DNA of 40,685 nt from a virus: the IMG/VR virus record IMGVR_UViG_3300005289_000011, positions 1 to 40,685 of that record; one strand, 5' to 3'. Below the pieces are notes generated by a model. That model ran no database searches, was not told the origin of the DNA, and saw only the letters and a program-made list of their open reading frames with translations. The translations under genes and the position numbers were made by a program. The first letter of the stretch is position 1. Every line of letters begins with the position of its first letter. Positions 4,182-31,333 of the stretch are shown piece by piece.

Positions 4182-6193
4182 TAGTTGCCCCCTTTCGTGC
4201 GGATCTTGACGCCATCAACGACAGTCCATCCATCTTGCGCGGGAGCGGGCGCGTCCGAACCGCCGCCAAACTGCGAATTGAAGAGTTCTCGTCCTGCGTC
4301 GGGGCCGTGGATGATTTCAAGCATGGTGCGCGTGTAATCCTTAAGATCCCTCTCAAAGTTAGGGCTGTTAGGATCAAGAGCGCCAGACTTTGCAGCAAGC
4401 ATTGCGCTTTCCGAATCCGAAACGGCACCAAGCGCGCCGCCTGTCGGAGACGACTGGCGCATTGCCTGAAGGTTCTCGACCTTGGCATTTGCCTTGAGAA
4501 CGTCAACCTGCCTGCGGACTTCCGCCGCATTACTTTCTGGCAGATACGACATTGCAGCGCCAAGGACACCACTTGCGGGAAGCCCTTCAGCCTTCATGGC
4601 TTCCATGGCACGGGTTGCCGCATTCGTCACAACGCTGCTCGCAACTTCTCGCTGTCCACCTGCCCTATCGTTTGCGGCGGCGGTCCTTGCTGCGTCCATA
4701 TCGGCAGGACCGCCAGGGATAGCAACAAGGCGTGAAGAATTTCCATCGCGTACAAGTTCCATGCCCGGGGGAATGGAGCCAATGTTAGACGGGGCCGATG
4801 CGGAAGCCTTCTGCAATGACCATTCATTGTAAGGCAATGGTGTTTGCCCTGCTGACGCCGCCTGATTGGCATAGAAATTATATTCTTGGACGCTTGTGGG
4901 CATCTGCTCAGGGCCAGTGAAGATCGGCTTTCCAGTCCGATTGTCAACAACAGTAGTCCCAACAGTAGACGTCGAAGGAGCCGCAAACACGTTGCCCGTC
5001 GCACCCTTCCATAGCTCGTCATCAACAGCATAGGCGGGGTCGATGCCCGTCTGCTGCGCGACCTGCTGCCTACGCTGAATCTCAGCCGCCCGCTGTTGTT
5101 CCGCAAGCGCCCGCTCTTGCGCCGCCTGCGCCTGTGCCTGCTGCTGCGTAAGGAGTGTTTGGGCCAACTGGACATTACGCGGATCTGCGTAAGGATCGCT
5201 CAACACGCGGGCTACGGCAGGGTTAATTCCGCCTGCTTGGGGCGCTGCGTCGGTCATGGTCTGCGGGCCAGCCTGAGGCATGAGGGCTTGCGCTACCTCA
5301 ACGCGGGGTGCGTTAGGCGTTGATACCATGGGATCTGTGTAACCGCCGCCCCCCGATGAAGGGAGAGACGCATACTTAGCCATCCGGCTATCGCGGTATT
5401 CTGGGGATGGACGAAGAAAGTTCTTCACAATCGCTTGTGCTGCTGTCGAAGTGTCAGGCGCGGAAAGGATGGATTCAAACGCCTTACGCTCAGGCCCTTG
5501 ACCTTCCATCATGAGGAAGTCCAACTGCGCATCAATGTTATCAGGCGTGACGCCACGTTCCTGTGCGAACTGCTCGTAAGCAACGCGGCGGGGCCCTGTA
5601 AGCTGGTAAAGGCCATAGCCTCCACGCGAGCCGGGAACGATAGGGTTCTGCTCATTAATACCTGGATTTAGGCCGCTTTCATCTTTGAAGTTGACTACGA
5701 AGGCGTCGGCCACATGCTCAGGCAAACCACGCTGGACAAGGCCCTGACGAATGTAGGCTTCCCCGCCTTCGCCGCTTGCTTGCAGGCCGGGAATGGGGGG
5801 CTGGTTAGCCGCCATGGGGGTTGAAAACATGTTTGTGGCGGGAGGCACTGATGCCGGGCCACTCATGCCCATAGGACTGGGAGCAGCCACAGGCGCACTC
5901 ATCCCGCCGCCCAAAACATCAAGCAGCGCCGCAGTATCAGCCGAAGACGCCTTTGCGTTCGCAGCCGCGCCCCGTTCCGCCTGCTTTTCTTTCCAGCCGG
6001 AAGCAAAACCCATCGCGCCCTTGGCAAGCACAGAAGTCCAGCCGCCCGCATTGGGGGAGGTGTCCGTTGCCTGCGCTAGCAATGACTGCGCCACTTCCTG
6101 CCGACGGGCAATCTGCTCAGGGGTCAGGCGCTCGCCATTCGGGCCGGTAAAGATTGCCGGGATGATTTCGGCTAGGTTCCTCGCTACCATCAA
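4181..6193 (-). CDS. Virion-associated phage tail lysozyme / ejection protein (670 aa)
   Basis: Residues ~145-280 resemble the phage tail lysozyme family: AYIRQGLVQRGLPEHVADAF, then NFKDESGLNPGINE with a candidate catalytic Glu, then RGGYGLYQLTGPRR, and a helical tail around EYRDSRMAKYASL. Such domains cut peptidoglycan locally during DNA entry. The N-terminus (FTGPNGERLTPEQIARRQEV) and the Gln/Ala-rich middle (ALAEQQRAAEIQRRQQ) are helical. It lies between the S74-domain protein and the large ejection protein with 4-base overlaps on both sides, the usual arrangement of an ejectosome gene set. The lysozyme assignment rests on motif spacing read by eye. Confidence 0.8.
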   Translation of the reverse strand: MMVARNLAEIIPAIFTGPNGERLTPEQIARRQEVAQSLLAQATDTSPNAGGWTSVLAKGAMGFASGWKEKQAERGAAANAKASSADTAALLDVLGGGMSAPVAAPSPMGMSGPASVPPATNMFSTPMAANQPPIPGLQASGEGGEAYIRQGLVQRGLPEHVADAFVVNFKDESGLNPGINEQNPIVPGSRGGYGLYQLTGPRRVAYEQFAQERGVTPDNIDAQLDFLMMEGQGPERKAFESILSAPDTSTAAQAIVKNFLRPSPEYRDSRMAKYASLPSSGGGGYTDPMVSTPNAPRVEVAQALMPQAGPQTMTDAAPQAGGINPAVARVLSDPYADPRNVQLAQTLLTQQQAQAQAAQERALAEQQRAAEIQRRQQVAQQTGIDPAYAVDDELWKGATGNVFAAPSTSTVGTTVVDNRTGKPIFTGPEQMPTSVQEYNFYANQAASAGQTPLPYNEWSLQKASASAPSNIGSIPPGMELVRDGNSSRLVAIPGGPADMDAARTAAANDRAGGQREVASSVVTNAATRAMEAMKAEGLPASGVLGAAMSYLPESNAAEVRRQVDVLKANAKVENLQAMRQSSPTGGALGAVSDSESAMLAAKSGALDPNSPNFERDLKDYTRTMLEIIHGPDAGRELFNSQFGGGSDAPAPAQDGWTVVDGVKIRTKGGN

Positions 6194-15510: not shown

Positions 15511-15881
15511 CAATACGTTTCCATGTATGAAAGCGTCTGAGCCGCTGTAGGAGAGGTTGCGTAAATGGCTGCAGCAGTTGGAATGGAAACGGACGCGCCT
15601 ACCGCACCGGCAACAAACAAGCCCGTCGCCGCCGCAACTGCGCTCGTGCCAAGATACACAGGCTGGGTACCGGTGATATTGGAAATTACCACCGACTGCC
15701 GACCAGCGCGGGCGGGAACAATCAAGGTTGCGGCAGCGGGAGAGATGGAACTAGCCGCCTGACCTGTTGCAAGAGCTGAAGAACCAACCGAACGAGAGAA
15801 CGACGGAGACGATGCAGAAACACCCCCAACATCATTACCCTGACGATCAACCAAAGTTACAGGCGCTCCACCAATAGGCAT
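15510..15881 (-). CDS. Small virion-region protein (123 aa)
   Basis: Starts within TAATG at the portal stop, so translation is coupled to the portal. Ala/Ser/Thr/Val-rich beta protein: SSISPAAATLIVPARAGRQS, VVISNITGTQPVYLGTSAVA, GASVSIPTAAAIYATSP. This resembles the small beta-sandwich proteins often found between portal and capsid genes and annotated as structural. No enzyme motif. Function not known. Confidence 0.55.
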   Translation of the reverse strand: MPIGGAPVTLVDRQGNDVGGVSASSPSFSRSVGSSALATGQAASSISPAAATLIVPARAGRQSVVISNITGTQPVYLGTSAVAAATGLFVAGAVGASVSIPTAAAIYATSPTAAQTLSYMETY

Positions 15882-18202
15882 TATTCCGTCTCCATCATCG
15901 CTTGTTGTTCGCTAAAACCTTGGCTGCGTTCAGCGCGGCTTTCGCCGCTGATCTTAAGCGCCGTATCCACTTGGCTCTGTTCGGTTGCGCGGGCTTCCCT
16001 GTACTCTTCAAGATCCTGCCTACGTGCGTCAAGGCCGATGCTAGAAAGGATCTTGGCGGTTTCTGCCTGCATCTTATTGATCCGCGCATCAGTTTCAGCC
16101 ATCTTTGTGGCGAAATCCTGCTGTTGCTTTGATAGCTGCAATTGAAGCTTCTGGTTTTCAGCCTGAGCCTTCGCGGCGTCAGACTGAGCCTTAAGCTGCA
16201 ATTCTCCCATCTTTCGTTCGTTCTCGGCCTGAGCCTGAGCGGCCCGCGCCTGTACAGTGGCCATTGCGGCTTGGGCTTTCACACCTTCAGCCTTGGCAAG
16301 CTCCATCTGCGCTGCCGCAAGCTCTGCGCTGCCATCACTTGCCTGCTCACCCTGTGGAGCCTGCCCAACGCTATCAATCCAATCGTCAATGAGCGTTTCA
16401 AGCTCGCGGCCCGTGCGGAACGGCGCAAGCTGAAATTTCAGCATGGCACCAGCGAGCTTTGCGCCCTGCGGTCCTGTCTGCACCAATGGCAGAAGCGCCT
16501 GGGATGCGGTCGCGAATGCCGACATGAATTCATTACGGCTGGACTTTTCCGCCTGCTCATCGGCCCAGATGGTCGAGCCGTCTTCGATCTCAAACGCAAA
16601 GCTGCGCGCCTTGTCATCACGCAACAGCTTCATGATGTCCTCGATTGGGACTTCATTCTGCATCTCGTTCAGCATAGGCGCGTAGCGGGCAATGATGGCC
16701 TGCTGTGCCTGCTGGAATTCCTGCTGCGCCTGTTGAGCCTGTTCAGTCGGGATCTGTGGTGCGGTTTCCTGCGCCTTCTGGCCTAGAGCCTTAAGCTCCT
16801 GCTCTGCGGCCTTTTCAATATCCTTGATGCGCTTTTCAATATCCGCCTTGGACGGGATATCAAGCTGCGACATATCCAGCAGGGTTTCTTTAGTGAACGT
16901 CTCCGCAATAATCTCGGCAGCAATGCGCACAGCATCACGGGCAATGCGCTGTAGTTCCTGAATCTTCTCGCGAACACGCACAGAACCATATTGCGTCTTA
17001 AGCTGCTGCGCACCTAGCGTCTCTTCCGCTTCGGTAGCACCTCGCATGATGTCGGAAATGCCCGATAGCTGATAGAAATCATCAATCAACTGCGAGCGAG
17101 CGGAAATAAGCCCCTGAATTGTCGTGGCCACCATGTCGATAGGCAACCACTGCACAAAATTGGACATGTCGCCAGACAGGGACGCGGACGGAACCGGAAT
17201 CAGGATCTCGTCATCATCGGAGCGCATAAGCTCCTCAATGGCGTTGCCAACGTCGCCACCAGCCGGGATAAGCCCCTTCATCTTCACCTTGTCGAGCAAG
17301 AGATAGATGCGGCTGGTTAGCGTGTTGATCTTGTTGAAATGCGAGGCATAGCGCTCGTAATCCGGGACCGGGACCAAAGAGCGGCGCTGCAATGTGCCAT
17401 AGGCTGGCTTCGGGCAAGGGAAAAATCCCTCCAGCTTTACGTCTGGTTCGGACGAATCCAAGAGAACGTCAACGCCCTCGGATACCCAATAAACGCGGTT
17501 ATCGACCTTGTGCCAGACTTCCCAGACAGACGCCTTCTTGCTGTTGTCGGTCGCGCCGTGTTCGTAATCGTCGCGCTTGGTGGTGAGAGCCGCATTCTTG
17601 TAGGCATCGCCGCTGTATTTGCGAAACCGCTTGCGCATGTCTTTGCGCGTCATCCATGACCGGCCAGCCACCCAACCTACTTCGCACCATTTACGGGCGA
17701 CCTCGTGCCGGAAGTCTGTGCGATCCTTGTGCTCAAAACAGACCTTCTGGCCTTCTTTGCGAATCCACATCACACCGCGATTGGTGAAAATCAGATCATC
17801 GCGGATCTCACACATGACCTCGTCAATATTGGATCGATCAAGCGCGGAAACAGAAGTGCGCTCCAATAGCTCAGCGGTCTTGTTCTTGAGCGGGCGGCTG
17901 TCCTTGAACTGCGGCGCAACAACGGGCTTTGGCGCATGGGCATATATAGCGGGCTTCAGGATCTCATAAGATGCCCAGAACAGATCTAGCTCAGCATCAG
18001 CCCATGTGGAATCAAGCGGCGAAATCTTGCCCAGGCGTTCAGTATCGCGGCGCGAATAGATATCATCGATTTCGTTGCAGATATCCTGCCAGTCGCGAAA
18101 AGCCTTTTGGGAATTTTCAAGCGCCGCAAGGATAACGCGGGATGATTTCGCATCTTCCTGATCCTTCAGGGAATCTTCCGGCTGGATTTCGTCTTCGTCC
18201 AA
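15881..18202 (-). CDS. Portal protein (773 aa)
   Basis: The size and layout match P22-type portals. There is an N-terminal helical region (AFRDWQDICNEIDDIYSRRD) and a core with PLDSTWADAELDLFWASYEI, WYKVDNRVYWVSEG-like strands and LEGFFPCPKPAYGTLQ. A stem and crown region (YYQLSGISDIMRGATEAEET) follows, and about 240 residues of Gln/Ala-rich coiled coil form the tail (QQAQQEFQQAQQAIIARYAP, KAQAENQKLQLQLSKQQQ), the barrel. The start codon is TTG (18202) with GAGG upstream; there is no in-frame ATG before about residue 128. It is the first gene of the late unit, behind its own candidate promoter. Confidence 0.9.
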   Translation of the reverse strand: MDEDEIQPEDSLKDQEDAKSSRVILAALENSQKAFRDWQDICNEIDDIYSRRDTERLGKISPLDSTWADAELDLFWASYEILKPAIYAHAPKPVVAPQFKDSRPLKNKTAELLERTSVSALDRSNIDEVMCEIRDDLIFTNRGVMWIRKEGQKVCFEHKDRTDFRHEVARKWCEVGWVAGRSWMTRKDMRKRFRKYSGDAYKNAALTTKRDDYEHGATDNSKKASVWEVWHKVDNRVYWVSEGVDVLLDSSEPDVKLEGFFPCPKPAYGTLQRRSLVPVPDYERYASHFNKINTLTSRIYLLLDKVKMKGLIPAGGDVGNAIEELMRSDDDEILIPVPSASLSGDMSNFVQWLPIDMVATTIQGLISARSQLIDDFYQLSGISDIMRGATEAEETLGAQQLKTQYGSVRVREKIQELQRIARDAVRIAAEIIAETFTKETLLDMSQLDIPSKADIEKRIKDIEKAAEQELKALGQKAQETAPQIPTEQAQQAQQEFQQAQQAIIARYAPMLNEMQNEVPIEDIMKLLRDDKARSFAFEIEDGSTIWADEQAEKSSRNEFMSAFATASQALLPLVQTGPQGAKLAGAMLKFQLAPFRTGRELETLIDDWIDSVGQAPQGEQASDGSAELAAAQMELAKAEGVKAQAAMATVQARAAQAQAENERKMGELQLKAQSDAAKAQAENQKLQLQLSKQQQDFATKMAETDARINKMQAETAKILSSIGLDARRQDLEEYREARATEQSQVDTALKISGESRAERSQGFSEQQAMMETE

Positions 18203-19555: not shown

Positions 19556-21091
19556 TCAACGCCCTCGTCTACCCCCAGGCAACGCAGGAGCATAAATAGC
19601 CCCAATCTCCAGCTGCCTCTCAGGCTCCTTACGCACCGGCCCCGTCGCCATGCGATCCATAAGCTGACCCGCCAAGCCTAAACTGTCGACCATATCGTCA
19701 TGCACACCAACAGGAAATGACATCATCTCACTGATCAAGTCCGACAATCCCGGAAAATCCGCCCGCACATACATGCCAGATAGCGCCATACGGCCACGGA
19801 TAGACTGCGCGCGGACGGCCTTGTCACCACGGGTGGCAAACTGCTCACGGGCCACATATGACGCCGTCTCCATCATGCGTTTGACAAGGAACGGCCCAAC
19901 GCCTGACTTGATCTGCCCAGTCTCTTCAGCCCATCCAATAGGCTTCCACTTGCGCACAAGGTTGCAGAACGCATCAACCCATACGTCAGATGCCGTTTGA
20001 CCGCGCCACATATCGAGCAGCCACAAGCGCCCCTCAGAATCCACGCCAACGATAACATGCACGGTATAGTCGCCGCCGTTAGCCGTTACCGCATAGTCGG
20101 ACGCGCCGTATATCGATAGCGTCTCGCGCGGCGGCACAGATTCAGGCGGGACAGCCTTGATCCACTCGCGCTTGAAATAGTCACCAGTGTCGGGCGATGG
20201 TCGCTGCTGAAAGAGAGCGGACCATGTACGCGGGTTCTTGCGGAAGTTTGACCAGTGCTTTTCATCGAACCATTCAGGCCATATCATATCACCGATCTTG
20301 CGCCCTAACGGATCATCGTGACGCTCACACTCAGCGGCAAGGCAAATCACCTCCCACTCAAAGCCATCGCGGCCCATGATGATACCGGATTCGCCCTTGT
20401 AGTTCTCAGGCAATATGCGACCAGCTGGGTCATCGTTATGCCAGCGGGTAAGGATCATGGCGAGCGATCCGCCTGGAATAAGACGCGTCTTCACGCTCTC
20501 TTCGTATTCATCCCATGTGCGTTGTCGGATGACTTCGGAATCAGCGTCTTGCCTTCCTCGGATAGGGTCATCAATGGCCACGAACTTTGCACGATTGCCG
20601 GTGATGCCAGACAGAATGCCGCCTGACATGTATTCACTACCATTCTCAAGCGCCCATTCATCTGCCGCCGCCTGATCACCTGAAAGACCAGTGCCGAATA
20701 GAGCTTTGTATTTCGATTGCTTGATGATGGATCGAGTACGACGGCCAAACTTCTTCGCCATATCGGATCCATACGACACGCCAATCATGCGGTAGTTTGG
20801 CCATTTGCCCATCGCCCACGACGGCGCGACAACGGACGCATATGTGGACTTGGCCGACCCTGGAGGCATGAAGATCATGAGCCGACCGTGCGGCTTTTCA
20901 ATGCACCGCTGCAGGGCTTCCAGCGTAAGGACATGGTGCGCTGCTAACGGTGTCTCGACGCGTGCGCAATCGTCGCCGTCTTCAGATACGGGAGCGCCCG
21001 GCACGTCGATGTAACGGGCGTATTCCACCAGTGAGGAGCGAGCGCGACGACGTGCCAGTAGTTCGGCGGCGGCTTGTTGGCGGGTGGTCAT
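19556..21091 (-). CDS. terL: Terminase large subunit
   Basis: 511 residues. The ATPase half has Walker A MPPGSAKSTYASV (about 76-88), the substrate segment IGVSYGSDMAKKFGRR, Walker B KFVAIDDP (about 169-176) and the coupling motif LTRWHNDDP. The nuclease half has SIYGASDYAVTANGGDYTVH with its metal-binding Asp residues and HDDMVDSLGLAG near the end. It cuts and pumps DNA into the procapsid through the portal, with the small subunit encoded at 21708. ATG overlaps the previous stop as ATGA. The packaging type (cos, headful or repeat) cannot be read from the window. Confidence 0.95.
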   Translation of the reverse strand: MTTRQQAAAELLARRRARSSLVEYARYIDVPGAPVSEDGDDCARVETPLAAHHVLTLEALQRCIEKPHGRLMIFMPPGSAKSTYASVVAPSWAMGKWPNYRMIGVSYGSDMAKKFGRRTRSIIKQSKYKALFGTGLSGDQAAADEWALENGSEYMSGGILSGITGNRAKFVAIDDPIRGRQDADSEVIRQRTWDEYEESVKTRLIPGGSLAMILTRWHNDDPAGRILPENYKGESGIIMGRDGFEWEVICLAAECERHDDPLGRKIGDMIWPEWFDEKHWSNFRKNPRTWSALFQQRPSPDTGDYFKREWIKAVPPESVPPRETLSIYGASDYAVTANGGDYTVHVIVGVDSEGRLWLLDMWRGQTASDVWVDAFCNLVRKWKPIGWAEETGQIKSGVGPFLVKRMMETASYVAREQFATRGDKAVRAQSIRGRMALSGMYVRADFPGLSDLISEMMSFPVGVHDDMVDSLGLAGQLMDRMATGPVRKEPERQLEIGAIYAPALPGGRRGR

Positions 21092-21971: not shown

Positions 21972-22124
21972 TTACACACGCCCCAAAAGCACAAGCACCA
22001 ACAGAACCACAAGAATAATCCCTAAAGCACTAGAAGGCCCATAGCCCCAACCTGCAGCATGAGGCCATGAGGGCAAAGCTCCAACCAGAAGCAAAACGAG
22101 AATGATAATCAGGATGGTTGTCAT
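21972..22124 (-). CDS. DUF3309-type double-hydrophobic peptide (50 aa)
   Basis: Reads MTTILIIILVLLLVGALPSW then PHAAGWGYGPSSALGIILVV and LLVLVLLGRV. Two hydrophobic stretches flank the WPHAAGWGYGPS turn, which is the DUF3309 signature found widely in bacterial genomes, notably alphaproteobacteria. It overlaps the GcrA-like stop (ATGA) and has AGGAAATTTCG as ribosome site. Location: inner membrane hairpin. Function of the family is unknown. Too short for most gene callers, yet the match is close to full length. Confidence 0.85.
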   Translation of the reverse strand: MTTILIIILVLLLVGALPSWPHAAGWGYGPSSALGIILVVLLVLVLLGRV

Positions 22125-22756
22125 CGAAATTTCCTAGCATCACGAACAGCCCTTCGCTCGGAAACCGTTCCGGGGCCTGCGACTTTAACGGCATGATAAG
22201 CGCAATAAGGTTTTAGTTCAAGCTTATTGCATCCACAAAATCTATGCGGCCCCGTTTGAGTGAGAGGGTATTTGCAACCCTCGTTTTCCCAAAGCAATAA
22301 CCCAGGCAATCGCGATTGATCGTAATCGTCCAGTGATGGCTCTGTGTATGCGGTAACCGATACCGGCCCTGCTGAGCGCCACCCTGTTGACAGGTTCTTT
22401 GCCACGGGTGGTTTGTTCTGATACTTAGGTCCTGCCTTTCGCTTTTCAAACATGCCTGGATGCTTTGACGCGATTTCCCTCACACGTTCTTGGCTAATTC
22501 CGAATTGCCTGCCAATCTCGGCTGATGACTTAGTCGTGCCATTCCAGACAGTGGCCATTGCCTCAAGATCCGGCTGCAACTGCACGATTCTTGCTGGAAA
22601 CATGTGCCGAAGCCTTTTGGCCTTCGATGCAATCATGCTTCTTGTGTACGTATGCCCCAATGCTGAAGCGATCTCGGAGCATGACATACCACGGCCCCAC
22701 ATCTCGGATGCACGTGTGAGATCATCTCCTTGCCAGTTTTCGGTAGGGGTGCTCAT
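22121..22756 (-). CDS. gcrA: GcrA-family transcriptional regulator, phage-encoded
   Basis: 211 residues. The N-terminus has the GcrA helix-turn-helix pattern: WQGDDLTRASEMWGRGMSCS then EIASALGHTYTRSMIASKAK followed by RLRH. A second helix-turn-helix follows (SSAEIGRQFGISQERVREIA). The C-terminus keeps the GcrA cysteine module: LLLWENEGCKYPLTQTGPHR then FCGCNKLELKPYCAYHAVKV. Cellular GcrA binds sigma-70 and activates promoters carrying methylated GANTC sites in alphaproteobacteria. A phage copy could redirect host RNA polymerase to late promoters. The added second helix-turn-helix makes it longer than I expect for the cellular form. ATG overlaps the DUF551 stop. Confidence 0.82.
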   Translation of the reverse strand: MSTPTENWQGDDLTRASEMWGRGMSCSEIASALGHTYTRSMIASKAKRLRHMFPARIVQLQPDLEAMATVWNGTTKSSAEIGRQFGISQERVREIASKHPGMFEKRKAGPKYQNKPPVAKNLSTGWRSAGPVSVTAYTEPSLDDYDQSRLPGLLLWENEGCKYPLTQTGPHRFCGCNKLELKPYCAYHAVKVAGPGTVSERRAVRDARKFR

Positions 22757-22974: not shown

Positions 22975-23438
22975 CACTGCCCCTCCACCGGCGCAAAGAA
23001 CGCCTTAGCCATCGTCTGGCAGAATGTGCCCAACGTTCCATCATTGGCGTACGCCCTGCCGATCTCACCGGCTGCAGCGTAACCGGCCTGCGTTAGCTGC
23101 TGGCCATTCATGCCCGTTTCATTCATGGCATTGGTTGCGATGAACCTTGCCAAGTCTGTAGGCGCATTGATCCCGCAGAATTGCTCGGCAACAATCACGT
23201 TAACGAGTGCCTTTGTCGCTTCCTGAGAAAACGCATACGACGCGGCAAACACGACAACTGCCGCACTGGCCAATCCAATCACAAGACCAGCGCGCCTGCC
23301 GTTTGGTGTTGATCTCACGTCCGGCTCCGCTGGCTTGGCATTGTCCACGTGATCGTAAACGCATGGGTCATTCGACCCAAAGCAGCAATAACCTTGTGTG
23401 TCCCGAAAGATCGGGCATGCGTGTGTTGAGGGGGTCAT
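22974..23438 (-). CDS. Single-pass membrane protein with Cys-rich N-terminus (154 aa)
   Basis: N-terminal ~45 residues contain five Cys (HACPIFRDTQGYCCFGSNDP and CVYD). One membrane segment follows (AGLVIGLASAAVVVFAASYA), and then a ~85-residue domain with two Cys (AEQFCGINAPTDLARFIATN, LGTFCQTMAKAF). With the positive-inside rule (RR just before the segment) the N-terminus is cytoplasmic and the larger domain periplasmic. An envelope role such as superinfection exclusion is possible but unproven. No family recognised. Confidence 0.62.
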   Translation of the reverse strand: MTPSTHACPIFRDTQGYCCFGSNDPCVYDHVDNAKPAEPDVRSTPNGRRAGLVIGLASAAVVVFAASYAFSQEATKALVNVIVAEQFCGINAPTDLARFIATNAMNETGMNGQQLTQAGYAAAGEIGRAYANDGTLGTFCQTMAKAFFAPVEGQ

Positions 23439-23662
23439 TTTGGTTCTCCTTCGCGAGCGGCAAGCATGGCGTCTGCGATTGCGTATGAATTAGAAGCTAG
23501 TTCACTAAGAGAAAGATTTGCGCCGTGCGGTAAAGCATCTGTTACGGCCACAATCGCCTGCCCCGCAAACCAATCGCGCAACGTCATGCCACTCATCCCA
23601 TTGTCTCCGCAGCCCGGTATGCTGACCGGATATGCAGGCCCACCCGTTTTAATCTCACTCAT
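23435..23662 (-). CDS. Small phage protein with MTLRDWFAGQA motif (75 aa)
   Basis: GPAYPVSIPG then GMSGMTLRDWFAGQAIVAVT and the ending SYAIADAMLAAREGEPK. This composite pattern recurs in small early proteins of many phages; no function is known. First gene of the leftward early operon, starting about 30 bases downstream of a consensus -10. Overlaps the next gene as ATGA. Confidence 0.75.
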   Translation of the reverse strand: MSEIKTGGPAYPVSIPGCGDNGMSGMTLRDWFAGQAIVAVTDALPHGANLSLSELASNSYAIADAMLAAREGEPK

Positions 23663-23691
23663 CTCTCATCTCCATCTCGTTCGATGCCCCA

Positions 23692-23719
23692 ACGATACGC
23701 CATAACGGGCGGATGTCAA
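23692..23719 (-). promoter_or_regulatory. Leftward promoter TTGACA-N16-TATCGT
   Basis: TTGACA 23719-23714, a 16-base spacer, and TATCGT 23697-23692, placing the start about 23 bases before the 23662 ATG. It lies downstream of the mirrored promoter, so the leftward operon may have two starts. Confidence 0.6.
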
Positions 23720-23751
23720 CGGGCAAGATAAAGATTTTAACTCTTTGAAGG

Positions 23752-23780
23752 ATAGTACACGCAATAGACCGCCATGCCTA
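23752..23780 (-). promoter_or_regulatory. Mirrored early promoter, leftward (TAGGCA-N17-TACTAT)
   Basis: Minus strand TAGGCA 23780-23775, a 17-base spacer and TACTAT 23757-23752. The -35 overlaps the end of the 21-bp element 23778-23798, so a protein bound there would block or contact polymerase. Weak -35, fair -10. Confidence 0.55.
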
Positions 23781-23798
23781 TCGTTTAACATGTTGAAA
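23778..23798. repeat. 21-bp inverted element, left copy (operator-like)
   Basis: Perfect inverted copy of 24057-24077. Contains a palindromic core AACATGTT within TTTAACATGTTGAAA, plus an asymmetric CTATCG arm facing the -35. No third copy was seen in the window. Confidence 0.9.
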
Positions 23799-24056
23799 TA
23801 ACTGGTGAATTTCCCTGATTTTAGATGGATAGACAGATAGGCATATACACCCATATAGACACCCGCCCCCTAAGATCAGAGAAAGTGAAGGAAATACAGT
23901 GCCTTAATAGATATCAAAATATATAGATATAGATAGATTTTACCTTAAAGACTACCCGCTACCCTACCCCATCTTAAGGGCCTATCTCCTACCTATCTAT
24001 ATGTATGTTATAGCCTACCCGTCTATCCATCCCAAAACGGCAAAATCAGCGTTGTT

Positions 24057-24077
24057 TTTCAACATGTTAAACGATAG
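24057..24077. repeat. 21-bp inverted element, right copy (operator-like)
   Basis: Perfect inverted copy of 23778-23798. Its GATAG end overlaps the -35 of the rightward early promoter. Confidence 0.9.
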
Positions 24078-24103
24078 TCAAGTGCGCCTATTGTATGTAC
24101 TAT
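24075..24103 (+). promoter_or_regulatory. Mirrored early promoter, rightward (TAGTCA-N17-TACTAT)
   Basis: TAGTCA 24075-24080, a 17-base spacer and TACTAT 24098-24103, the mirror image of the leftward promoter. It would start the replication operon transcript near 24110, with a 125-base leader. Confidence 0.58.
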
Positions 24104-24174
24104 GCTACTCCCCCAATCCTGAAATCAGGAGGTGGCCACTTGCGATCGGGTGAAGTTGGGGGTACAAAAGAACA

Positions 24175-24207
24175 AGGCCCGGAGCGTGTGGTGCGCTCGA
24201 CGGGCCT
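24175..24207 (+). promoter_or_regulatory. Long hairpin in the early leader RNA
   Basis: AGGCCCG + GAGCG pair with CGCTC + GA bulge + CGGGCCT around a seven-base loop: twelve pairs. No T-tract follows, so it is not a simple terminator. A smaller palindrome CCTGAAATCAGG (24119-24130) lies upstream. It may protect the message or act as an RNA element on polymerase or translation. Confidence 0.6.
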
Positions 24208-24236
24208 CTAACCAAGGATGACAGGGGAAGTGTCAA

Positions 24237-24473
24237 ATGGCTGATAGCCAAATTATCAAATCAGAGACGTGGCCGCAAGAAGACAATTCAAGGCGGAAAA
24301 ATTTCATAGACGAACTTGATGTCGGCGAATTCATGATTCGGTGCATAGACACTATCAAGGTGTCTCAAAGAGTTTATTCGTATGCCTACAGAACTGGCAA
24401 GAAGTTTAAGATAAGGCAGCGCGAAGACGAATTTGGTCGCCCTAACGGCATCCTTATCACTCGCGTAGAATAG
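24237..24473 (+). CDS. Unknown 78-aa protein, first gene of replication operon
   Basis: MADSQIIKSETWPQEDNSRR and on through DELDVGEFMIRCIDTIKVSQ to a basic strand-rich end (YRTGKKFKIRQREDEFGRPN then GILITRVE). The ribosome site AGGGGAAG lies ahead of ATG. The C-terminal part resembles the start of small single-strand DNA-binding or plasmid-control folds, but I cannot name a family. It is eight bases upstream of the primase gene. A replication-linked role is inferred only from place. Confidence 0.65.
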   Translation: MADSQIIKSETWPQEDNSRRKNFIDELDVGEFMIRCIDTIKVSQRVYSYAYRTGKKFKIRQREDEFGRPNGILITRVE

Positions 24474-24481
24474 GCTTCATC

Positions 24482-26857
24482 ATGAAAAAAACAGAACTCC
24501 TGCGCTCCTTCGCTGAGAACGATATTGCCGTTCTACTGCTTAAGGCCATTGATCCAGAATACGATTCACCCGTTAACGGTAAGCAGCCCCTCAAGTCCAA
24601 ATGGCAAGCCTCAAGCGTGCCTGACGCAGATGACCTAGAAGACATGATTGAGATCGTGGAGCTATCTGGGTGCGGCTACGGCGTACTTGTTAGCAACCTC
24701 CTGGTCATCGACGTTGACGCTAGAAATGGTGGCGTCGAATCGTATGAAAATCTGGTTCAGCAATTCCCAGAAATATTAGGGTGCGGCCTCATTGTCGAAA
24801 CCGGCAGCGGCGGCGGATCTCGGCATCTTTATTTCAAACTTGATCCAAGCGTTAGAGTTTCCAAGAACGTCAAGGAATACCCTGGTATCGACTTCAAGCA
24901 CTCTGGGATGGTCGTCGGCCCCGGCTCTATGCATCGCTCTGGCCGTGCATACACGGTTCTATCAGGCTCAGTCGAAGACATAGACGAAGCTCCTGACGGA
25001 TTGGTCGAACTTCTTAAGCCCCAAGCTTACGAACGCATCCAGCACGACGGCGAAGACATGGTAGTGACTGACTTCCTGCTGAAGTCGGCACTGGAGCACG
25101 TCACCTGCTATGACGACTACCATGAATGGATCAACATCGGCATGGCTATTCACCATGCCACGAATGGCGATGGACTGGCGATCTGGGATGGATGGTCATC
25201 AAAGAGTAAGGAATATTCCGCCCGTGACGTGAATTACAAATGGGGCGGATTCGGCAAGGTAGGTGTCGCACCTGTAACAGCCGGAACAATCTTCAAACTC
25301 GCAGCTGACAACGGCTGGAAACGCCCCTATGACGAACTGGAAAACGTCGTCATCCCGGAAGCATGGTATTCATGGGCATACAAGGAACAAGCAGCAACAG
25401 AAGAGTTTGAGGCAGCGGTAGCGGCTGGAGATCCTATTCAGGAAGAAACCAGAGTTGATTATCGTCTTGCCCAAATCGACAACTTCCCGATACCACTTGA
25501 CGATATCGACATTACGCAGCCTCCAGGGTTTGCCGGGGAACTTGCAAGGTGGATCGATGCAAGATGTTCAAAGCCGCGAAGATACCTATCGGCAATGGGG
25601 GCCGTCTATGCACTATCCGTTATCGGTGGATTGCGACACGCTGGCACTGATGGGCAGAACACGCGGTCTAACATGATCGTGATAGGTTCCGCGCAATCGG
25701 CATCCGGCAAGGGTCCGGTGCTTGGAGCGGTCAGGACGATTATCTCTGCGGCTGGGTTGGGTGAAACCACCTATGGCGGTATCACATCAGAACGCGAGAT
25801 GATTGACAATCTAATCGAACATCAATCGGCAAACTACGTCATGGACGAAATCGGGGACAAGCTTGGAAACGTGTCATCCACAAAGGCAAACGTCGCCAGC
25901 TACAACATCGGGACCATACAGGCGATCCTTGATCTGTTCACCAAGTCTGGCGAGGACCATCCTCTTAACGGCAAGCATCGTCGTGACTTGCGGGAACGGA
26001 TCAAGGCGGAATACGCGCAGCATCAAAAGCGTGTGGAAGAGAACGAAGACGAGAACGGATATTCAGCACGAAAGCTTGAAAACCTGAAGGCAAGGCTAAA
26101 TGCTGAAAGTCTTAACTGCCCATATCTCTCCATATTCGGGGTGACGACGCCAGGGCAGTTGCGCCCGACAATGAATCTTCACAACGCCAGTAATGGCTTG
26201 CTTGGCCGTGCTTTCCTGTGCGCTGAGGACGATGACCACCCGCGAACCCGCAAGAACTTTTCGCCGCCGTCTATGCCAATGGGGATGATGATGCGGATTT
26301 GTAATATCGCCAACGGCGGCGACCTGGAAATGTATTCCATGCGCGTGGAATCGCCGTCTAACATGGTGCCTATTGCCTATTCTAAGGAAGCCGCCGCCTT
26401 GTTGGAGACATTCAACGAATGGCAGGAGAACTACGCAGAGTTCCAGGAGATGGAATTCGGCGGGCCATTCGGTCCTATTTACAACAGAATGACTGAGAAG
26501 GCGAAGAAGATCGCGCTCACTTTGGCCATGGAAGAGAAGATCGTAACGGAAGAGTTTGCCAGATGGGCCATTGCCGCGTCATGGAAAGACGCAAATTCCA
26601 AGATCGAAATGATCAAGCAATATGACCCTGAATATTCCAAGCGCGTTGACATCAAAGATATGCTGGTAAAGCAGATCACCAAAAAGCCAGGGCAGGCCGT
26701 GGGGCAGATCTGCAACGGCAACCGCACCTTGCGAGACATGGACCGGGAGAAGGTCAACACTATCCTTGGAATCCTTGTGAAGGAAGGCAAGGTGACGGCG
26801 CACGTGTCGGTTAACTCTCAGACAAAGCAGAAGGTGGTTAAGTACCATCCGAAATGA
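24482..26857 (+). CDS. Bifunctional DNA primase/polymerase with helicase-like DUF3987 region
   Basis: 791 residues. The prim-pol domain has LLVIDVDARNGG (Asp77, Asp79, metal site), VETGSGGGSRHLYFK (His115) and PGIDFKHSGMVVGPGSMH. A PriCT-2-like module lies at about 195-290 (DYHEWINIGMAIHHATNGDG). The third region (about 360-700) has Walker A-like SAQSASGKGP near 402-411 and NYVMDEIGD near 450, as in DUF3987 helicase-like proteins. It would lay primers and unwind DNA at the origin. The phage shows no separate replicative polymerase, so host polymerase III is presumably used. The gene ends just before a bidirectional terminator. Confidence 0.9.
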   Translation: MKKTELLRSFAENDIAVLLLKAIDPEYDSPVNGKQPLKSKWQASSVPDADDLEDMIEIVELSGCGYGVLVSNLLVIDVDARNGGVESYENLVQQFPEILGCGLIVETGSGGGSRHLYFKLDPSVRVSKNVKEYPGIDFKHSGMVVGPGSMHRSGRAYTVLSGSVEDIDEAPDGLVELLKPQAYERIQHDGEDMVVTDFLLKSALEHVTCYDDYHEWINIGMAIHHATNGDGLAIWDGWSSKSKEYSARDVNYKWGGFGKVGVAPVTAGTIFKLAADNGWKRPYDELENVVIPEAWYSWAYKEQAATEEFEAAVAAGDPIQEETRVDYRLAQIDNFPIPLDDIDITQPPGFAGELARWIDARCSKPRRYLSAMGAVYALSVIGGLRHAGTDGQNTRSNMIVIGSAQSASGKGPVLGAVRTIISAAGLGETTYGGITSEREMIDNLIEHQSANYVMDEIGDKLGNVSSTKANVASYNIGTIQAILDLFTKSGEDHPLNGKHRRDLRERIKAEYAQHQKRVEENEDENGYSARKLENLKARLNAESLNCPYLSIFGVTTPGQLRPTMNLHNASNGLLGRAFLCAEDDDHPRTRKNFSPPSMPMGMMMRICNIANGGDLEMYSMRVESPSNMVPIAYSKEAAALLETFNEWQENYAEFQEMEFGGPFGPIYNRMTEKAKKIALTLAMEEKIVTEEFARWAIAASWKDANSKIEMIKQYDPEYSKRVDIKDMLVKQITKKPGQAVGQICNGNRTLRDMDREKVNTILGILVKEGKVTAHVSVNSQTKQKVVKYHPK

Positions 26858-30745: not shown

Positions 30746-31333
30746 ATGTCAGATAAAGTTTATTGCGTTTACACGCATAGCCGTCAAAGTGACGGGAAAA
30801 TTTTCTATGTCGGAAAAGGAAAGAAAAATCGCCCTTATTTTTTTAAGGGGCGTTCTTCGCTGTGGAGCAGAATCACAGCTAAGCACGGCTGCGTTGTTTC
30901 GATATATGCATCTGGTCTTTCTGAAAATGATGCGTTTGATTTAGAGAAAAAGCTCATATCAGAAATAGGAAGAAATAACCTTTGCAACCATACTGATGGC
31001 GGCGATGGGTGCAGTAATCCTTCACCAGAAACTAGAAGAAAAATGTCTTTGGCCAAAATAGGTCATGTTAAATCACCAGAAGCGATTCAGAAACACGCTG
31101 AAAAACTCAGAGGCAAAAAAATGCCTCCTGAAGCTATTGAAAAAACTAGACTTGCTCACTTAGGCTCGAAGAGAAGCGATGAAAGCAGAAGGAAAATGTC
31201 TGAAGCGGCAAAAAACAAACCTAAGTGCTCAGAAGAGGCAAGAAGAAAAATGTCCGCGAGCAGAAAGGGAAAAAAACAGTCCCCAGAACTCATTGCAAAA
31301 AGGTTTGCAAAATATTGGGGAGAGCCAAAATGA
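30746..31333 (+). CDS. GIY-YIG homing endonuclease with NUMOD3 repeats
   Basis: 195 residues. The nuclease domain opens YCVYTHSRQSDGKIFYVGKG (GIY-YIG core) and continues to LEKKLISEIGRNNLCNHTDG with the catalytic Glu. Four NUMOD3-type DNA-binding repeats follow: SPETRRKMSLAKIGH, SPEAIQKHAEKLRGKK, SDESRRKMSEAAKNK and SEEARRKMSASRKGKK. It is A+T-rich against its neighbours, as for a recent arrival. It sits free-standing between exonuclease and helicase; its stop overlaps the helicase start (ATGA). No intron splicing core was seen. Its target is probably the intact exonuclease-helicase junction of a related phage. Confidence 0.9.
   Translation: MSDKVYCVYTHSRQSDGKIFYVGKGKKNRPYFFKGRSSLWSRITAKHGCVVSIYASGLSENDAFDLEKKLISEIGRNNLCNHTDGGDGCSNPSPETRRKMSLAKIGHVKSPEAIQKHAEKLRGKKMPPEAIEKTRLAHLGSKRSDESRRKMSEAAKNKPKCSEEARRKMSASRKGKKQSPELIAKRFAKYWGEPK

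Follow-up and report, generated by a model that had tools for sequence, protein, structure and literature searches.

The mirror-symmetric region that lies between two divergent operons in this 40,685-bp stretch of phage DNA (hereafter the window; Table 1) is probably the phage's bidirectional, iteron-type DNA replication origin. A preliminary description had read the region as mirrored promoters that switch both operons together. An origin is preferred because in each of the nine contigs scanned that bear a mirror, the least stable 50 bp lie inside it and close to its centre, because in two relatives the mirror follows the primase gene and precedes a gene on the same strand (with repeats beside the primase gene elsewhere), because better promoters lie outside the arms and the presumed -10 hexamer is the reverse complement of a repeat, and because the neighbouring gene encodes a Prim-Pol, PriCT_2 and DUF3987 protein with a predicted C-terminal winged helix.

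Table 1. Positions of the mirror-symmetric region, its component sites and the neighbouring genes in the window.
Feature	Position	Strand	Remarks
Whole mirror-symmetric region, proposed replication origin	23749..24106	.	358 bp; mirror score 49
Left arm	23749..23859	.	111 nt
Right arm	23996..24106	.	111 nt
AT-rich centre, proposed duplex-unwinding element	23905..23954	.	least stable 50 bp of the window
Left 21-bp element (repeat GATAG + IHF-like core)	23778..23798	-	21/21 identical to 24057-24077
Right 21-bp element	24057..24077	+	identical to left copy
Left IHF-like site TTTCAACATGTTA	23786..23798	-	1 mismatch to WATCAANNNNTTR; 135 bp from centre
Right IHF-like site TTTCAACATGTTA	24057..24069	+	1 mismatch to WATCAANNNNTTR; 136 bp from centre
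Outermost repeat GATAGTA	23751..23757	+	leftward "-10" of the preliminary description, read backwards
Repeat AATAGAC	23763..23769	+	
Inverted repeat copy GATAGGC	23776..23782	-	
Repeat GATAGAC	23828..23834	+	
Repeat GATAGGC	23836..23842	+	
Repeat-like TATAGAC	23854..23860	+	
Repeat GGTAGGC, one mismatch	24013..24019	-	mirror of 23836-23842
Repeat GATAGAC	24021..24027	-	mirror of 23828-23834
Repeat GATAGTC	24073..24079	+	mirror of 23776-23782
Repeat AATAGGC	24086..24092	-	mirror of 23763-23769
Outermost repeat-like CATAGTA	24098..24104	-	rightward "-10" of the preliminary description
Sigma-70-like promoter TTGACA-16-TATCGT, outside arm	23692..23719	-	leftward
First leftward gene	23435..23662	-	75 aa
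GcrA-like regulator, leftward operon	22121..22756	-	PF07750, 1.8e-12
Terminase large subunit	19556-21091	leftward	
Portal	15881-18202	leftward	
Small ORF before primase	24237..24473	+	78 aa
Prim-Pol + PriCT_2 + DUF3987 (MCM-like) helicase + C-terminal winged helix (predicted); proposed initiator	24482..26857	+	791 aa

The two arms, separated by 136 nt, are complementary at 80 of 111 positions and mirror each other in exact register about position 23927.5. The mirror score (ungapped, +1/-1) was far above that of 500 dinucleotide shuffles (mean 10.1, sd 1.2, maximum 20), which bears out the earlier statement that the halves are inverted in strict register, and no second mirror was present in the window (next best score 14). 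Counted block by block, 61 of 68 positions matched in the conserved blocks versus 18 of 42 in the gaps; thus, complementarity is concentrated in the blocks. The perfect 21-base element and the 19-base block with 17 matches were recovered as described, and a CATATAGA block matched at 8/8 positions; the outer 18-base block, credited with 16 matches, has 15 on recount. The 10-base gap matches at 4/10 positions; that the gaps had diverged fully is slightly overstated for the 25-base gap (11/25). Between the arms, the central 68 + 68 nt matched at 23/68 positions. The 21-bp element reads as an IHF-like core fused to one repeat; a search with its last 20 bases returned no further copy in the genome within three mismatches.

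Inverted copies of a degenerate, GATAGRC-like repeat are found in both arms of the window. RATAGRC, a motif picked post hoc from the arms, is enriched there, with seven copies in the mirror versus 0.13 expected and a shuffle maximum of two, and de novo motif finding on the window alone was barely better than for 20 shuffles (39.6 versus 38.3). The repeat becomes readable mainly through comparison with relatives. Short repeats confined to one noncoding region, as expected of an iteron origin, are clear in L102 (GATTTCC, with 7/8 copies of the locus inside the region), L103, together with L114 (GATCCC(A); GATCCC, 9/11), L107 (GGACHTAG/GACNTAGTG; GGACHTAG, 7/7) and L128 (GTTACTGAG, 10/10). All ten copies in L128 form one 330-bp array (5361-5688), partly mirrored, before a distant primase gene. 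Repeats lie at -162, -148, -96 and -88 from the centre in the window and at -165, -89 and -82 in L102, in both cases mirrored; judged from these offsets, the geometry is nearly constant between the two despite the differing repeat sequence.

Each arm also carries an IHF-like site between its outer and inner repeats. In the window, both sites depart from the consensus at one position and, judged by number alone, 24 of 200 shuffles did as well; across six regions, seven perfect IHF consensus sites were found where flanking sequence would give ∼0.17, and the window has none of these perfect sites. The paired sites are equidistant from the centre to within 4 bp in the window, L102 (128/128), L105 (106/105), L106 (109/111) and L128 (106/102), and to within 9 bp in L103/L114 (125/116 in L103).

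The AT-rich centre has a calculated stability of -48.7, compared with a window mean of -71.5 (sd 4.6). When whole contigs were scanned, the least stable 50 bp fell within the mirror, no more than 50 bp from its centre, in all nine mirror-bearing contigs (the window, G001-G004, G011, G013, G015 and G016), so that an adjacent, easily melted segment of the kind known from iteron origins is present in each. In L128 and in an 8-kb stretch of the isolated Pseudoalteromonas phage H103, sites less stable than the mirror exist elsewhere. The cumulative GC skew of the window has its minimum near 23-28 kb, which does not discriminate between readings because the skew coincides with divergent transcription.

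Relatives were gathered from viral-contig searches (shared TerL, portal or primase), and their contigs were scanned in full for gapped self-inverse matches. By primase identity, L004 is closest (74%), followed by L102 (49%), L103/L114/L104, L105 and L106 (38-41%) and L107 (34%), with others more distant. One mirror region each was found in the window, G001, G002, G003, G004, G015 and G016, and also in G011, where it lies ∼17 kb from the DUF3987 gene, and in G013, a fragment in which Prim-Pol was not found. Within the TerL-, portal- or primase-sharing set, the mirror lies beside the primase gene in 7/7 phages with an intact Prim-Pol locus; another Prim-Pol contig, the eighth (G005/L104), breaks off within its mirror and was left unscored. 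Relatives without Prim-Pol (G006-G010, G014, Mwe-JY13 and Pan3, six of them long TerL relatives) showed no mirror above 32 in the gapped scan, in which the window scores 90. The gapped score by itself is not enough to tell the groups apart, because G001 (L102) scores only 29; there, the case for a mirror is based on its repeats and its IHF-like sites. Of six isolated Prim-Pol phages that were sampled, three (DDSR119, Sf11 and ct7L0027) had neither a mirror nor a clear repeat array at the thresholds used.

The gene context varies among these phages. The mirror lies between divergent operons in the window, L102, L103, L105, L106 and L114, just 3′ of the primase stop codon and before a same-strand gene in L107 and H103, and in L110, L112, VLCpiS13c and pYD21-A repeats occupy the noncoding gap beside the primase gene. 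The preliminary description had named relatives whose two halves fail to co-vary as evidence against it. Outward-oriented arms of the same phage aligned with local scores of 26-53 in 8/8 phages, whereas arms from different phage groups averaged 10.5 (maximum 26); both halves therefore change together, as that description required. Its notion of paired protein-binding sites held by selection at fixed spacing likewise appears supported by the co-variation in these eight phages. L004, consisting of the right arm and centre only, was outside this comparison. Its leader downstream of the right arm (270-410) contains four ATGTGGGAAAC-type repeats, absent from the rest of the locus. The contigs of both L104 and L004 end in or near the mirror (positions 1-30 in each; in L104 within the AT-rich centre), as if a hairpin had broken the assembly. 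In L174 (7980-8237), L142 (7902-8041) and similar primase-bearing loci, dense CCTGGACAC or GGGACGAGG arrays lie ∼2 kb away from where the primase match starts and are possibly further origins.

The leftward and rightward operons of the window diverge from the mirror region, as had been described. The rightward genes are replication genes (primase, Sak4-like, SSB, exonuclease and helicase), among which lies a homing-endonuclease-like ORF (phrog_314; 30746-31333). The primase matches PF09250, PF08707 and PF13148; its structure model (mean pLDDT 76, pTM 0.52) found the Prim-Pol domains of pRN1 and NrS-1, MCM helicases and Orc1 in Foldseek, and its C terminus is predicted to carry a winged helix, whereas a sequence search of the PDB with the primase returned no match. 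By Pfam and Foldseek, Prim-Pol, helicase and a predicted C-terminal winged helix are thus combined in one protein, as in pRN1. No isolated phage had DNA similarity to the region, and an Rfam search of 23400-24600 gave nothing up to E = 1. The leader of the 78-aa gene contains a stable, GC-rich hairpin (24175-24207; z -2.8) that has no Rfam match; a hairpin shared among primase operon leaders was discarded as the folds in the relatives tried were not clearly beyond those of shuffles. Judged by TerL and portal, Microcystis phage Mwe-JY13 is the isolated phage most closely related. Relatives of TerL are also found in genomes of alphaproteobacteria (e.g., Rhizorhapis and Aureimonas), which, together with the GcrA-like protein, makes an alphaproteobacterial host likely. 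The GcrA-like protein (PF07750), a candidate late-gene regulator, was also present in 10 of the 15 further records examined, nine of them exceeding the family cut-off. Neither the window nor the close relatives tested yielded a tyrosine integrase (PF00589); therefore, the phage is probably virulent.

If the region is an origin, a phage initiator would bind the repeats, most likely the 791-aa primase-helicase via its C-terminal winged helix and possibly assisted by a small partner protein. Host IHF would bend each arm between outer and inner repeats into a compact folded complex, the AT-rich centre would then melt, and two helicase rings would load head to head to establish two forks, the mirror symmetry reflecting this symmetric loading. 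We infer the identity of the repeat-binding protein, the binding of IHF and the origin activity itself from the sequence. The divergent operons would begin at ordinary promoters just outside the arms, and the same stretch may therefore also affect transcription. More tentatively, the region could represent a modular, swappable two-fork origin, in which the mirrored scaffold stays fixed, with outer repeats, an inverted repeat, the IHF site for the host protein, inner repeats and a central unwinding element, and both arms carry a repeat sequence particular to each phage, read by a Prim-Pol protein whose MCM-like motor loads as two opposed rings; we regard this as conceivable, at somewhat less than even chances.

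The promoter reading fared poorly where its hexamers were concerned. The mirrored -35 and -10 (TAGGCA or TAGTCA, 17 nt, TACTAT) match the consensus at only 4/6 + 4/6 positions, so the mirrored blocks lack the good hexamers of a divergent sigma-70 pair, and reverse-complementing TACTAT yields an outermost repeat of the GATAGTA type, which in H103 is the repeat itself. A better leftward promoter lies outside the arm (Table 1), and in relatives the TTGAC(A/T/C)-type promoters likewise lie beyond the arms. Mirrored promoters were rejected, given these weak hexamers and the same-strand contexts in relatives. IHF is common at regulated promoters, and in the promoter reading mirrored operators and promoters would jointly switch both operons under a single phage regulator, IHF serving as an architectural aid. 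The position between divergent operons in the window and five relatives, the co-varying paired sites, the weak hexamers in the outer blocks and the frequency of IHF at such promoters all speak for it. It is nevertheless unlikely, since the arrays of L107 and H103, downstream of the primase gene and amid same-strand genes, have no divergent transcription to control, better promoters exist outside the arms, the centre is the genome's least stable DNA and the repeats are confined to one region. The lack of an integrase also counts against it: an immunity-type operator is not expected, and lysogenic operators were ruled out on this ground for the window and its close relatives. Origin and control may also coincide, as in the autoregulated origins of many plasmid Rep systems, the repeat-bound initiator repressing or activating both flanking promoters. 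This extension of the origin reading, rather than an exclusive rival, is possible if somewhat doubtful: promoter-like sites lie 9-78 bp outside the arms in several phages and the replication gene comes second among the rightward genes, but the arrays of L107 and H103 are away from the primase promoter.

Alternatively, the origin might be of the stem-loop kind put forward for pRN1 and BIP-1/BPP-1, with the arms extruding a cruciform that the primase-helicase recognises. The single strand does fold well (z = -9.7) and the protein has the pRN1-type domains (PMC4234260), but the arms are a series of repeats and IHF-like sites, separated by gaps that pair badly, instead of an iteron-free stem, and the IHF-like pair of L103/L114 is off register, which a stem would tolerate badly and discrete sites would tolerate; we hold this to be quite improbable. 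The flanking of IHF-like sites by short repeats would also fit a centromere-like partition site or an attachment site with IHF (P1 parS-like or lambda attP-like). Such a function is scarcely credible: a P1-type parS was rejected for want of a cognate ParB (PF02195) in the window and five relatives, and the missing tyrosine integrase in the window and its close relatives counts against an attP-like site.

Among known systems, the iteron origins of pSC101 and R6K comprise iterons, an AT-rich unwinding region and an IHF bend; their iterons are tandem and on one side of the AT-rich region, whereas here they form two mirrored arms. Phage P4 differs in its primase, which is of the Toprim type, and we know of no mirrored IHF-flanked layout at its origin. 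The likeness would lie in a winged-helix primase-helicase on short origin repeats, which the P4 alpha protein binds (PMC4234260). Closer are pRN1 (ORF904) and the Bordetella phages BIP-1 and BPP-1, in which an archaeo-eukaryotic Prim-Pol, a helicase and a C-terminal winged helix are combined, with a PriCT_2 variant in the phage proteins, and an inverted-repeat noncoding element lies beside the gene, demonstrated to be the origin in pRN1 and proposed to be so in BIP-1 (PMC4234260). The same kind of protein and an adjoining inverted-repeat element, here a putative origin, recur in the window and its relatives. The origin of pRN1, a stem-loop of 100 bp, has no iterons (PMC4234260), in contrast to the layout in the window, where 111-nt arms composed of repeats and IHF-like sites enclose an AT-rich centre of 136 nt upstream of the primase gene. 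In BPP-1, inverted TTTGCCTCG repeats surround a short centre at 26592-26724 (L239 2593-2725) and are possibly the origin of that phage. The origin of the PLE satellite of Vibrio cholerae, with semi-palindromic iterons bound by the RepA initiator (PMC7145576), is likewise a mobile-element origin with iterons, but differs in its RepA_N initiator and layout.

The origins of most environmental phages are not yet located. The mirrored layout, in which the repeats change, spacing is near-constant and the host-factor site is constant, offers a recognisable signature for Prim-Pol phages, from which their replication start can be predicted. The phages also provide a natural series of matched repeat/initiator pairs for studying how specificity changes. 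If the MCM-like motor indeed loads as opposed rings on the two arms, they would furnish a small and tractable system in which to study symmetric loading of helicases, and the two-fork origin would be a viral counterpart of such loading at the origins of cells.
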